64,000 nucleotides of DNA, taken from positions 1 to 64,000 of the forward strand of contig JAHLAX010000046.1 in NCBI GenBank assembly GCA_020625875.1. The letters run 5' to 3'. The DNA comes from a bacterium (lineage in GTDB: Bacteria > Bacillota > Clostridia > Oscillospirales > Acutalibacteraceae). The translations under genes were made by a program, and so were the position numbers. The notes beneath the pieces are model-generated. The model searched no databases. It was not told the DNA's origin and saw only the letters and a program-made list of their open reading frames with translations. Shown piece after piece: positions 3,943 to 6,186 of this stretch. The stretch's first letter is position 1, and each line of letters starts with the position of its first letter.

Positions 3943-4146
3943 ATGGCGGAATACAGTATTGTTTGTCCCGAAAACGAAGCTGATGGTTACGGCATAAAGG
4001 CTGTAAGCACAAAGTATTATTACGACATTTCTCACAACCGCGAGGCGTTGACCGAGTTTTGTGAGATGTGCAGCGAGCTTGATTTAGAGCTTGTTCATTT
4101 TGATACCGTGCTTGAAGATTATCTGAGTCGAAAAGCCTTTTTGTAA
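3943..4146 (+). CDS. Small hypothetical protein between ispD and ispF
   Basis: 67-aa acidic, soluble protein with no signal peptide or membrane segment. It has its own sigma-70 type promoter and a clear ribosome site (GGGAGG 8 or so bases before ATG), so it is likely real. Visible features are a tyrosine cluster (STKYYYDISHN) and a helical acidic C-terminal half (LTEFCEMCSELDLELVHFDTVLEDYL). I do not recognise a family with certainty; its pattern resembles short Clostridial proteins of unknown function. Confidence 0.7.
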   Translation: MAEYSIVCPENEADGYGIKAVSTKYYYDISHNREALTEFCEMCSELDLELVHFDTVLEDYLSRKAFL

Positions 4147-4161
4147 TCGGCTATAAAAATC

Positions 4162-4190
4162 TTGAATAAAACACTATTATGTGTTATTAT
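4162..4190 (+). promoter_or_regulatory. Promoter of ispF
   Basis: TTGAAT (4162-4167), 17-base spacer, TATTAT (4185-4190), 29 bases before the ispF ATG. Confidence 0.6.
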
Positions 4191-4219
4191 TCTTCTATAA
4201 TCTATCGGGCGGTGATTAG

Positions 4220-4693
4220 ATGCGAATAGGACACGGATATGACGTGCACAAGCTTGTTGAGGGCAGAAAGCTGATACTCGGCGGGGTGGATATTCCCTAC
4301 GAAAAGGGGCTGCTCGGTCACAGCGACGCTGATGTGCTTTTACACGCGATTATGGACGCGTTGCTTGGCGCCGCGGCGCTGGGGGATATAGGCAAGCTGT
4401 TCCCCGATACAGACGAGCGTTTTAAGGGAGCCGACAGCATTCTTTTGCTCAAAGAAGTCTGCCGCGTGCTTTCTGAGAATGGTTATAGAATAGTTAATAT
4501 TGACTCGACCGTGATTGCCCAACGACCGAAGCTCAAGGACTATATCGTTACAATGCGCGGCAATATCGCGAACGCCTGCGGCGTTGAAACGAGCCAGATA
4601 AGCGTCAAAGCTACCACTGAGGAAAAGCTCGGCTTTACGGGCTCGGGCGAGGGAATCTCAGCCCACGCTGTGTGTTTGATTGAAAATTGTTGA
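4220..4693 (+). CDS. ispF: 2-C-methyl-D-erythritol 2,4-cyclodiphosphate synthase
   Basis: IspF, 157 aa, forms the cyclodiphosphate intermediate of the MEP pathway with release of CMP; the active enzyme is a trimer with zinc. The N-terminus RIGHGYDVH supplies the zinc ligands Asp and His, and [20 protein letters not shown] supplies the third His and the substrate contacts. [10 protein letters not shown] and [17 protein letters not shown] are the other family signatures. Length is normal. Its TGA stop lies inside the -35 box of a promoter for a downstream small RNA. Confidence 0.96.
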
Positions 4694-4717
4694 CAAATAA
4701 TTTATGTATGATATAAT
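4690..4717 (+). promoter_or_regulatory. Promoter of predicted antitoxin RNA
   Basis: Consensus TTGACA (4690-4695), 16-base spacer, TATAAT (4712-4717). No coding gene follows on this strand before the terminator at 4780-4817, which points to a short untranslated RNA starting near 4724. Confidence 0.75.
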
Positions 4718-4723
4718 GAATAT

Positions 4724-4817
4724 AGAAACAGAGTTGACCGAACGAAACGGTTAACCTGTAGAGTTAGTTATTTATAAAAAATAACCGCTACTGTGGCATT
4801 TTGGCGGTTATTTTTTT
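4724..4817 (+). ncRNA. Predicted small antisense RNA (type I antitoxin-like)
   Basis: Predicted transcript of about 94 nt between a consensus promoter and a strong terminator. It starts with a hairpin (GTTGACCG...CGGTTAAC, 4733-4755) and has no ribosome site or open frame. Its 3' end overlaps the 3' end and stop codon of a tiny minus-strand gene (4808-4888), so the two transcripts would be complementary across the shared terminator. Its CCGAAC...GGTTAACC motif recurs, on the other strand, in the 5' leader of that gene (4917-4945). This matches the plan of TxpA/RatA or Fst-type loci. Existence and role are inferred from layout alone. Confidence 0.6.
4780..4817. terminator. Bidirectional terminator shared by sRNA and toxin-like gene
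   Basis: Stem AATAACCGC (4780-4788) / GCGGTTATT (4804-4812). Plus-strand T-tract at 4811-4817; on the minus strand the A-rich stretch at 4774-4781 gives the T-tract. Confidence 0.8.
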
Positions 4818-4888
4818 ATGTCTTTGATTAGCTCCGATAAAACTACCATAAAAATTATGAGTAGTATGTATTCGGACAATGCTGACAC
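4808..4888 (-). CDS. Tiny hydrophobic peptide, holin-like type I toxin candidate
   Basis: A 26-codon frame from GTG 4888 (or 23 codons from the in-frame TTG at 4879). It encodes a single hydrophobic helix (YILLIIFMVVLSELI) with a basic tail (KDIKK), the usual form of Fst/TxpA/holin-like membrane toxins. A ribosome site AAAGGA lies 6 bases before the GTG. That site is locked in an 11-bp hairpin with an upstream CCCTTTCTTTT (4890-4919), as in type I toxins whose translation is held back by leader structure. It has its own promoter (4957-4985) and faces a convergent small RNA. Family membership is inferred from form and layout, not similarity search. Confidence 0.6.
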   Translation of the reverse strand: MSALSEYILLIIFMVVLSELIKDIKK

Positions 4889-4889
4889 C

Positions 4890-4919
4890 CCCTTTCCTTT
4901 AGTTGTAAAAAAGAAAGGG
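4890..4919 (-). promoter_or_regulatory. Shine-Dalgarno-sequestering hairpin in toxin leader
   Basis: On the minus strand CCCTTTCTTTT (4919-4909) pairs with AAAGGAAAGGG (4900-4890), ten Watson-Crick pairs and one G-U, burying the ribosome site of the tiny gene. Confidence 0.65.
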
Positions 4920-4956
4920 TTAACCGCTTCCGTTGTTCGGACAACTCCGTAAAGCT

Positions 4957-4985
4957 ATTATAACACAAATGTTCGATAAATGCAA
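4957..4985 (-). promoter_or_regulatory. Promoter of the tiny toxin-like gene
   Basis: Minus strand TTGCAT (4985-4980), 17-base spacer, TATAAT (4962-4957). A stem-loop GTTGTCCGAACAAC (4945-4932) follows near the predicted transcript 5' end. Confidence 0.7.
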
Positions 4986-5007
4986 TACAAAATGAATAAA
5001 AACTACG

Positions 5008-5040
5008 CCTCGTTCATAAGCTTGAACGAGGTGCTTTTTT
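5008..5040 (+). terminator. Hairpin plus T-tract abutting the dacF start
   Basis: Stem CCTCGTTC (5008-5015) / GAACGAGG (5024-5031), then TGC and six Ts ending directly at the dacF ATG (5041). The likely dacF ribosome site (GAGGTG, 5028-5033) is inside the stem. It may be a terminator, a translation-limiting leader, or both. Confidence 0.55.
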
Positions 5041-6186
5041 ATGTTTAAAAAATTGATTTCTTTTATGTTGATAATCGCGGTTTTGACGACGCCTGTTTGC
5101 GCTTTTGCCAAGGCGGAAAAGCCCACGGTTATCCTAAGCTCACCCGCGGCTGTGCTTATGGAAGCGGAGACGGGCAAAATTCTTTTTGAGAAAAATAAAG
5201 ACGAAAAGAGAGCCTGCGCGTCAATTACAAAGGTTATGACGTTACTGCTCGTTATGGAGGCGCTCGAAAACGGCAAAATAAAACTTACCGATACGCTCAC
5301 CGCGTCTGAGCACGCCGCGTCAATGGGCGGCTCGGATATTTGGCTCGAGCCTAATGAAAAGATGAGTGTTGATGATTTGATAAAAGCTACCGCTGTAGCT
5401 TCGGCGAACGACGCGGCTGTGGTGCTCGCTGAGGCAATATCGGGCAGCGAGGAGGCGTTTGTCGCCGAAATGAACAAGCGCGGCAAGGCGCTTGGTATGA
5501 AGAACACAACTTTTAAAAACTGCAACGGGCTTGACGAAAAGGGACACCTTACCTCAGCGAACGACGTTGCTGTTATGTCGCGCGAATTGATAAAGTATCC
5601 CAAAATCTTTGACTACACGTCAATCTGGATTGACAACCTGCGCGGCGGCAAAACTCAGCTTGTCAATACCAACAAGCTGCTCAAAACCTACAATGGAATC
5701 ACAGGTTTAAAGACAGGTACAACAGGCGAGGCGGGCTGCTGTATAAGCGCCACAGCCAAGCGTGACGGGCTCAGTCTTATTGCTGTTGTGCTCGGCTGTG
5801 ACAGCGGCAAGGAGCGCTTTAAGGACGCTGCGAGCCTGCTCGACTACGGCTTCGCTAACTTCGCGGTTGAAAAACTAAAGCTCCCCAAACAGGCGACCGA
5901 GGATATTAAGGTCGAGGGCGGAATGGATGATACTCTACATTTAAAATGCCCTCAGCCCGGGAATACTATAGTGGGCAGAATGGCGAGCGACAAAGTTACA
6001 ACCGAGTGCAAAATCAAAAAAGAGGTGAAAGCTCCCGTCAAAAAAGGCGACAGAATGGGCGAGGTCAATTATTATCTCAACGGTGAAATAGTAAAAACCT
6101 GCCCGATTACCGCGGGTAACTCGATTGAGAAAATGACATTCGGAACAGTATTAAACAAGTTGTTTAATTCGTTATTGGAATTATAA
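5041..6186 (+). CDS. dacF: D-alanyl-D-alanine carboxypeptidase (PBP5/DacF family)
   Basis: Penicillin-binding carboxypeptidase of 381 aa that trims the terminal D-Ala from peptidoglycan stem peptides outside the membrane. Residues 1-24 form a signal peptide. The three active-site motifs are present: S61-I-T-K64, S121-A-N123 and K224-T-G226 (LKTGTTGEAG). A beta-rich C-terminal domain (about 280-360) and a short amphipathic end complete the PBP5-like plan. There is no second membrane segment. Its ribosome site lies in a hairpin that ends in a T-tract right at the start codon, which would limit expression. DacA or DacF cannot be told apart; sporulation-linked DacF is a guess from the clade. Confidence 0.85.
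   Translation: MFKKLISFMLIIAVLTTPVCAFAKAEKPTVILSSPAAVLMEAETGKILFEKNKDEKRACASITKVMTLLLVMEALENGKIKLTDTLTASEHAASMGGSDIWLEPNEKMSVDDLIKATAVASANDAAVVLAEAISGSEEAFVAEMNKRGKALGMKNTTFKNCNGLDEKGHLTSANDVAVMSRELIKYPKIFDYTSIWIDNLRGGKTQLVNTNKLLKTYNGITGLKTGTTGEAGCCISATAKRDGLSLIAVVLGCDSGKERFKDAASLLDYGFANFAVEKLKLPKQATEDIKVEGGMDDTLHLKCPQPGNTIVGRMASDKVTTECKIKKEVKAPVKKGDRMGEVNYYLNGEIVKTCPITAGNSIEKMTFGTVLNKLFNSLLEL

Follow-up and report, generated by a model that had tools for sequence, protein, structure and literature searches.

A type I toxin-antitoxin-like unit with mirrored RNA starts and a LexA-like site in its toxin promoter in a Ruminococcus-like bacterium

Introduction

What is encoded by the roughly 300 bases at positions 4690-4985 of the window, by which we mean the whole 64,000-nucleotide stretch of DNA from a Ruminococcus-like bacterium analysed here, flanked as these bases are by two ordinary genes? 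The original prediction saw in them a compact type I toxin-antitoxin-like locus on the plan of the TxpA/RatA and Fst families. Gram-positive type I pairs are described, in the portion of PMC4147584 available to us, as convergent RNAs that overlap at their 3' ends. Our comparison of sequences supports a unit of the type I toxin-antitoxin-like kind whose predicted RNAs converge on a common terminator and whose peptide frame and leader stem are conserved. Moreover, there are two features absent from the earlier account, namely that the unit belongs to a dispersed multicopy family and that its toxin promoter contains a LexA-like site. Annotation readily overlooks peptides of 21-33 codons, and a model of the antitoxin RNA is a searchable tool that brings to light numerous candidate toxin loci among relatives of Ruminococcus.

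Results

Parts of the locus

The unit consists of convergent promoters, a minus-strand hydrophobic peptide of 23 codons with a basic tail, a predicted plus-strand RNA of about 97 nt, and one terminator common to both transcripts, which we call RNA I (toxin mRNA) and RNA II (antitoxin RNA). Its parts, and its neighbours under the names given them by the original prediction, are:

4220-4693: open reading frame named ispF, left neighbour of the unit
4690..4717, plus strand: promoter of RNA II, TTGACA-N16-TATAAT, 12/12 match
4724..4820, plus strand: RNA II, predicted antitoxin small RNA of about 97 nt with predicted ends; matches covariance model R1 at 98 bits, the window copy itself being included in the model
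4731..4742, plus strand: 5' element of RNA II (GAGTTGACCGAA), almost identical to the RNA I 5' element
4733..4755, plus strand: 5' hairpin of RNA II, GUUGACCG / CGGUUAAC, 8 bp
4776..4817, both strands: bidirectional terminator common to RNA I and RNA II, from energies and structure
4808..4879, minus strand: putative toxin peptide MSEYILLIIFMVVLSELIKDIKK, TTG start, 23 codons, with codon-position bias
4886..4888, minus strand: alternative GTG start, 26 codons; overlaps the Shine-Dalgarno (SD) sequence and is judged unlikely
4888..4892, minus strand: SD core GGGGG, from sequence and fold
4890..4919, minus strand: leader hairpin hiding the SD, 11 bp, 4919-4909 paired with 4900-4890
4918..4926, minus strand: RNA I arm CGGUUAACC, immediately 5' of the SD hairpin
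4935..4948, minus strand: 5' element of RNA I (GGAGTTGTCCGAAC), an inverted copy of the RNA II 5' element
4957..4985, minus strand: toxin (RNA I) promoter, TTGCAT-17-TATAAT, extended -10
4963..4974, minus strand: LexA-like site GAACATTTGTGT inside the toxin promoter, by matrix score
5041-6186: open reading frame named dacF, right neighbour of the unit

Both promoters had been called consensus. For the RNA II promoter this is correct; it ranks first among the five sigma-70-like sites listed in 4000-6000, and its position carries a match of at least 10/12 in 109 of 116 family loci, against 62 of 3000 random 58-mers of the window. The toxin promoter, however, has a perfect TATAAT preceded by a TGT extension but a weak -35, TTGCAT, matching at 3 of 6 positions, and because of this -35 the sigma-70-like scan did not list it. 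The plus-strand RNA, originally put at 94 nt, is supported by the model match, at the length given above. For the peptide, predicted at 23-26 codons, the frame 4888-4808 is indeed present, and we prefer the shorter form: the TTG at 4879 is a better start than the GTG at 4888 because the GTG falls within the SD. This TTG is kept in 5 of 5 subtype A copies (see below) and is, from the sequence, the likely toxin start. The single bidirectional terminator and the burial of the SD in an 11-bp hairpin were both correctly foreseen, as was the overlap of the two predicted transcripts at their 3' ends, which spans about 43 nt and is perfectly complementary with the transcript ends that we assume. CCGAAC and GGTTAACC do lie near the predicted 5' ends of both RNAs.

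Copies of the unit

The search for the same arrangement in related genomes that the original prediction had proposed returned several copies. A blast of the 321-bp unit gave a second copy in the same genome, with 76% identity, and, among 59 genomes searched, strong matches in three others (G033, G015 and G005), while an exact toxin-leader pattern identified 11 copies in 5 of 161 genus genomes, two of which also hold an antitoxin-only copy. The 11 copies, which are related to one another and whose agreement is to that extent not independent, keep the common plan, the G015_C35 copy with a diverged toxin promoter. The peptide frame and the leader hairpin, on whose conservation in relatives the prediction had staked itself, are both conserved, and the peptides fall into three subtypes (MSEYILLI.., MIEEIIALL.. 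and MYEIILYL..).

Comparison of flanks indicates at least three sites common to different genomes. One of them, matched by its left flank, is occupied in G000 by subtype A, in G033 by subtype B and in G015 by A and B in tandem. At the ispF/dacF site of G033 and G015 the antitoxin half alone is kept and the toxin half is replaced by another repeat, whereas a toxin leader without RNA II occurs in none of the 11 pattern-found copies. The apparent direction of decay, towards an antitoxin-only state, supports a toxin-antitoxin reading. We observed that the replacing repeat, GGCTTCCCTTGGGGGAAGC... (L083, about 5040-5215, with the same site in L086), leaves an orphan antitoxin RNA.

In named genome contigs the toxin-leader pattern matched 15 stretches, 8 of which are copies in MAGs, seven titled Ruminococcus (three of them goat rumen) and one 'bacterium bin66'. 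We took the other 7 (Gammaproteobacteria, Acidobacteria, Halorubrum, Nitrospirales, Chryseobacterium) as chance matches, two of them having been inspected. Phage carriage of the window type was likewise considered and rejected, the 2 exact pattern matches in viral contigs falling by chance within GC-rich phage genes and not being accompanied by the unit. The patterns of two other groups had no match in viral contigs, blastn of the unit found no match in phages, and among plasmids its sole match, a partial one of 69 bases, was to 3 from Enterococcus. Separately, one locus (L145, in G086) holds a second family 5' element and arm within a few hundred bases downstream of the model match, and therefore tandem units occur outside the window type too.

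A wider RNA II family

How far does the arrangement extend beyond these copies? A covariance model of RNA II, built from 15 sequences and with E-values that are rough, has at E 0.1 a match in 126 of the 161 genus genomes, where about 16 would be expected by chance, with up to 10 matches per genome; at 1e-4 it matches 69 of 161 (hand count). At the latter threshold the matches extend to 80 of 394 genomes of the order and 16 of 398 of the phylum, both samples containing the window's own genome and a few kin. We took as genus loci the 117 best model matches, down to E 6.4e-6, leaving aside a contig-edge match (G023:C49:133). Under strict criteria (an SD and a basic C-terminus) an opposing peptide is present at 91 of the 117, whereas the wrong strand has one at 0 of 117 and random stretches at 11 of 4000; under loose criteria an opposing hydrophobic peptide is present at 99, compared with 21 of 117 and 582 of 4000. 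This leaves 18 loci (loose) or 26 (strict) with RNA II and no peptide. Outside the genus, loose criteria give a candidate peptide at 12 of the 17 order loci printed and at 7 of 9 phylum loci, one of the 7 being a fragment. The peptide-less loci include L127 (G008), L129 (G103) and L149 (G004); a few keep apparent 3' remnants of the toxin frame, and at least G143 and G156 retain the RNA I leader.

What kinds of toxin sit on this RNA chassis? Among 10 toxins tested, 2 pass the Pfam cut-off for Hol_Tox (PF16935), with 25.3 and 32.0 bits against 23.3, and a further Hol_Tox-like toxin, in G001, falls 0.1 bit short. Several chassis toxin types have no Pfam match. With types defined by regular expressions, one and the same toxin type turns up on several chassis groups, just as several toxin types share a single chassis group, and toxins thus appear to have been exchanged on a conserved RNA frame. 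Profile searches gave no Hol_Tox match for the window-type A, B and C peptides and no match for the window peptide in the libraries searched; window-type peptides match no NCBIfam model, that of the C. difficile type I toxins included. No Rfam family reaches its gathering score at the window locus or in ten relatives. The whole looks like a large, apparently uncatalogued family of tiny putative membrane-peptide toxins paired with opposing silencer RNAs. We found no description of it in the literature searched, which is weak evidence, most subscription journals lying outside its coverage. At L017 (G001:C41), near a similar terminator, there is a small peptide of another kind, MDFLISFTFSIVANVVAYYICKWLDRK, which has an SD of its own and resembles, very weakly, a type I toxin model of C. 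difficile (E 0.082).

Coding signal and structure of the two RNAs

Differences between peptides at the three codon positions number 27/4/42 in the window subtype and 815/201/1468 over all aligned sets, where pairs inside one set are not independent. This bias is, in the aligned sequences, the mark of selection for hydrophobic residues, and we have here a short hydrophobic peptide with a charged tail under coding selection, as one asks of a type I toxin; in the peptide listing of genus loci the start chosen is sometimes a longer in-frame one than we judge likely. The other half of such a system, an antisense RNA complementary to the toxin mRNA, is present in the sequence of the predicted transcripts.

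The predicted structures are also conserved. Pairing of the RNA I SD exceeds that in shuffled leaders in 85 of 90 loci, with a mean unpaired probability of 0.13 against 0.31 (90 of the 91 loci, in a few of which a doubtful SD was picked). The 5' hairpin and terminator of RNA II covary; two-sided changes number 126, where shuffles average 28 and slid controls reach at most 27, over 101 distinct rows of an alignment that was fitted to the structure and in which related rows are not independent; the 3' arm of the hairpin, CGGUUARCC, is widely conserved. Among the 11 copies, the calculated energy gain from 3' pairing at the shared terminator averages -41.8 kcal/mol for cognate and -8.8 kcal/mol for non-cognate RNAs, although one non-cognate pair from different genomes reaches -32.9 kcal/mol. 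These energies support the view that pairing specificity would come from the 3' overlap.

Might the peptide instead be a non-toxic small membrane protein, a stress-induced modulator, with RNA II as its regulatory RNA? The chromosomal location, here between housekeeping genes, would suit such a protein. However, chassis relatives encode Hol_Tox proteins, the locked SD and antisense partner are as in known toxins, and antitoxin-only remnants occur, and we regard a non-toxic role as improbable.

Mirrored 5' ends

Both RNAs begin with the same sequence of about 10-13 nt, and this element covaries between groups. Of the 117 loci, 116 have a parsable RNA II arm, 92 an RNA I arm as well and 91 also a peptide, the rest being dropped from the comparison. 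Within a locus the two 10-mers agree on average at 9.12 of 10 positions, against 7.61 between loci and 7.29 for a reverse-complement control, and 0 of 10000 permutations reach 9.12. When loci are sorted into eight 5'-element groups, set by eye with regular expressions after single-linkage clustering had given one cluster, the true pairing of RNA I with RNA II groups is the best of all 40320. Within groups a fine match is significant for A (27/5000) and C (101/5000) only and is lacking in A2, B, D and E; two further groups, F with 2 loci and G with 3, are too small for this comparison. The identity spans about 13 nt, positions 0-9 of the profile being inflated by the choice of anchor and positions 10-12 not, and it is not raised in the flanking promoters. 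The same arm, CGGUUAGCC, follows the element in most loci. By eye, a shared 5' sequence was also seen in several loci of other families, and two phage Hol_Tox-like loci (Listeria and Enterococcus, Bacilli hosts) have a leader segment common to both strands at 11 of 12 positions, a different segment and one assessed with no chance control.

One could read inverted elements of this kind as the terminal repeats of a MITE-like mobile repeat whose promoters arose by chance, since copies stand at several chromosomal sites and one pair is tandem. But the inverted identity is confined to those 13 or so nucleotides, at the predicted RNA 5' ends and without a rise in the flanking promoters, the peptides evolve as coding sequence, and some sites are common to genomes by their flanking sequence, all of which makes a mobile repeat very unlikely.

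Why, then, should the mRNA of a toxin have the same opening sequence as the RNA antisense to it, a question that the families compared below leave unanswered? The original prediction noted that GGTTAACC is self-complementary and suggested that the two RNAs could kiss there. In its strong form, kissing through GGTTAACC or a swap of hairpin arms would be the main inhibitory contact, as in Fst par; the palindrome is present in both 5' ends in the window, and the arms of one RNA can pair with those of the other. The energies speak against this: the cognate 5'-5' gain is -2.48 kcal/mol, no better than the -2.51 kcal/mol of other groups, and 4463 of 10000 permutations are as low (91 x 91 pairs). Moreover, in 4 of 11 copies RNA II has GGTCAGCC where RNA I has GGTTAGCC, leaving an A-C mismatch in the kissing duplex, while within RNA II's own hairpin GGTCAGCC turns a G-U into a G-C pair. 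We therefore hold a decisive 5' contact to be improbable. A common recognition or stability element fits the shared 5' ends better than cognate 5'-5' pairing, and, as speculation, purine-rich SD-like 5' elements might protect the 5' end.

Tentatively, and aware that the odds are rather against so specific a scheme, we suggest that in a large clostridial branch of such loci the antitoxin RNA may be built as a copy of the toxin mRNA leader, the mirror serving as an address for a common factor and not for cognate antisense pairing. This factor could be an RNA-binding protein, or else a site for ribosome standby or 5' protection, and the antitoxin would compete with or mimic the toxin leader. The element would then change in concert in both RNAs while toxins are exchanged, and in the window branch the toxin alone would be under LexA.

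A LexA-like site in the toxin promoter

Of the 31 lexA upstream regions of the genus that could be parsed, 30 have a box near CRAACAAATGTTYG. The boxes were chosen by eye (22/22 in the first regions parsed, with 8 of 30 lexA loci unparsed, and 8/9 later), and in a few regions another candidate scored equal or higher. With a matrix from these 30 boxes, the site in the window's toxin promoter ranks second of 63,989 positions, five of which score at least 8 bits; it reaches 9.9 of a possible 19 bits, its right half being imperfect (GTGT, not GTTT). A score of 6 bits is reached by 19 of 21 toxin promoters of groups A and A2 and by none of their 21 antitoxin promoters; for the remaining groups the figures are 8 of 69 (toxin) and 5 of 69 (antitoxin), 90 of the 91 loci being covered. 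An identical stretch of 18 bases (GAACATATGTGTTAATAT) occurs in the lexA promoter of G031 and in the G033_C15 toxin promoter, while recA of the window genome has only a weak box of 6.1 bits. Judged from these sites, the toxin switch of the window branch may be wired to DNA damage.

It is quite possible, if somewhat less to be expected, that the site is inherited promoter sequence of the group and no LexA operator at all: the group A copies are paralogous, the site is imperfect, and in other groups so few promoters reach 6 bits. On the other hand, shared descent leaves aside that none of the A/A2 antitoxin promoters reaches this score and that G031's own lexA promoter has the same site. That promoter (L254, about 569-605) has two close LexA-like boxes, of 15.9 and 9.9 bits, and the latter recurs unchanged in some toxin promoters.

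Discussion

Proposed mechanism

We consider it highly probable that the locus is a chromosomal type I toxin-antitoxin unit in which RNA II silences RNA I by 3' pairing; in this reading the toxin promoter would be under LexA. RNA II, made from its strong promoter, would pair with the toxin mRNA through the 3' overlap at the common terminator, leading presumably to RNase III decay, a translation block, or both. RNA I would be silent by default because its SD is locked in the predicted, conserved leader hairpin. LexA would sit on the extended -10 of the toxin promoter only, and DNA damage would lift the repression, whereupon, if the operator-like site acts as one, the toxin mRNA would outrun RNA II. 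The 23-aa peptide, judged by its class, would then enter the membrane and slow the cell.

This reading is supported because the plan is kept in 11 copies in 5 genomes; because of the coding signature, the SD sequestration in 85/90 loci and the covariation of RNA II; because strict opposing peptides occur at 91/117 loci, against 0/117 and 11/4000 in the controls; because two Hol_Tox toxins above the cut-off sit on the same chassis and 3' pairing is cognate-specific; and because of the antitoxin-only sites in two sister genomes and the LexA-like site. It is weakened because the window peptide matches no known toxin family, because the minus-strand -35 is weak, and because 18/117 (loose) or 26/117 (strict) RNA II loci have no peptide, and its SOS part because the LexA-like site is imperfect, at 9.9/19 bits, and the recA box weak.

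Relation to known systems

TxpA belongs with Hol_Tox, and Hol_Tox toxins occur on the window unit's RNA chassis. The unit further shares with TxpA/RatA-type and Hol_Tox (PF16935) systems a short hydrophobic peptide with a basic tail and convergent predicted RNAs with 3' overlap, the latter as described in PMC4147584; it differs in that the window peptide is not Hol_Tox by profile, no Rfam family matches, and a LexA-like site lies in the toxin promoter. The likeness to TxpA/RatA originally proposed holds by way of the Hol_Tox-matching toxins on the same chassis, but the window peptide itself matches nothing. By its predicted architecture the unit is of the TxpA/RatA (Hol_Tox) kind; what is new is a putative toxin peptide outside the profile libraries searched, mirrored RNA starts, and a possible SOS switch.

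Membership of the Fst family, in contrast, finds no support. The unit shares with par of pAD1 (Fst/Ldr) convergent promoters, a bidirectional terminator and an SD in a 5' stem-loop. But in par, according to the sections of PMC7472228 at hand, direct repeats make the RNAs complementary, whereas the window's 5' repeats are inverted and the RNAs are alike there. The same sections describe a Trp between the transmembrane helix and the charged tail and a P/D/S/TXXXG motif, the Fst prototype itself having Val in place of the Trp; MSEYILLIIFMVVLSELIKDIKK has neither the conserved Trp nor the motif (PXXXG).

If the LexA-like site is real, the locus would give a clostridial gut bacterium an SOS-driven type I toxin, one that compares with TisB of E. 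coli. The named LexA-controlled type I toxins in the available text of PMC8309996 and PMC4147584 are TisB and DinQ, both of E. coli; TisB is there a short membrane peptide under LexA whose antitoxin RNA, IstR-1, is not induced by DNA damage. A short membrane peptide, putative in the window, is common to TisB/IstR-1, DinQ and the window unit, LexA control being in the window only predicted. However, tisB and istR-1 are divergent genes, with no 3'-overlapping mirrored RNA. The C. difficile type I systems (such as CD0977.1-RCd11) resemble the unit, in the excerpt of PMC7699646 that we could draw on, in other respects: they are clostridial, the toxin is hydrophobic with a positive tail, and the 3' end of the antitoxin overlaps the toxin transcript, yet window-type peptides do not match the NCBIfam model of these toxins.

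Finally, just beyond the unit, at 5006-5043, the window has a strong terminator-like hairpin of 11 pairs whose T-rich tail reaches the dacF start codon. Its stem is almost identical in G033 and G015, and, judged by position and fold, it may be a leader attenuator of dacF.
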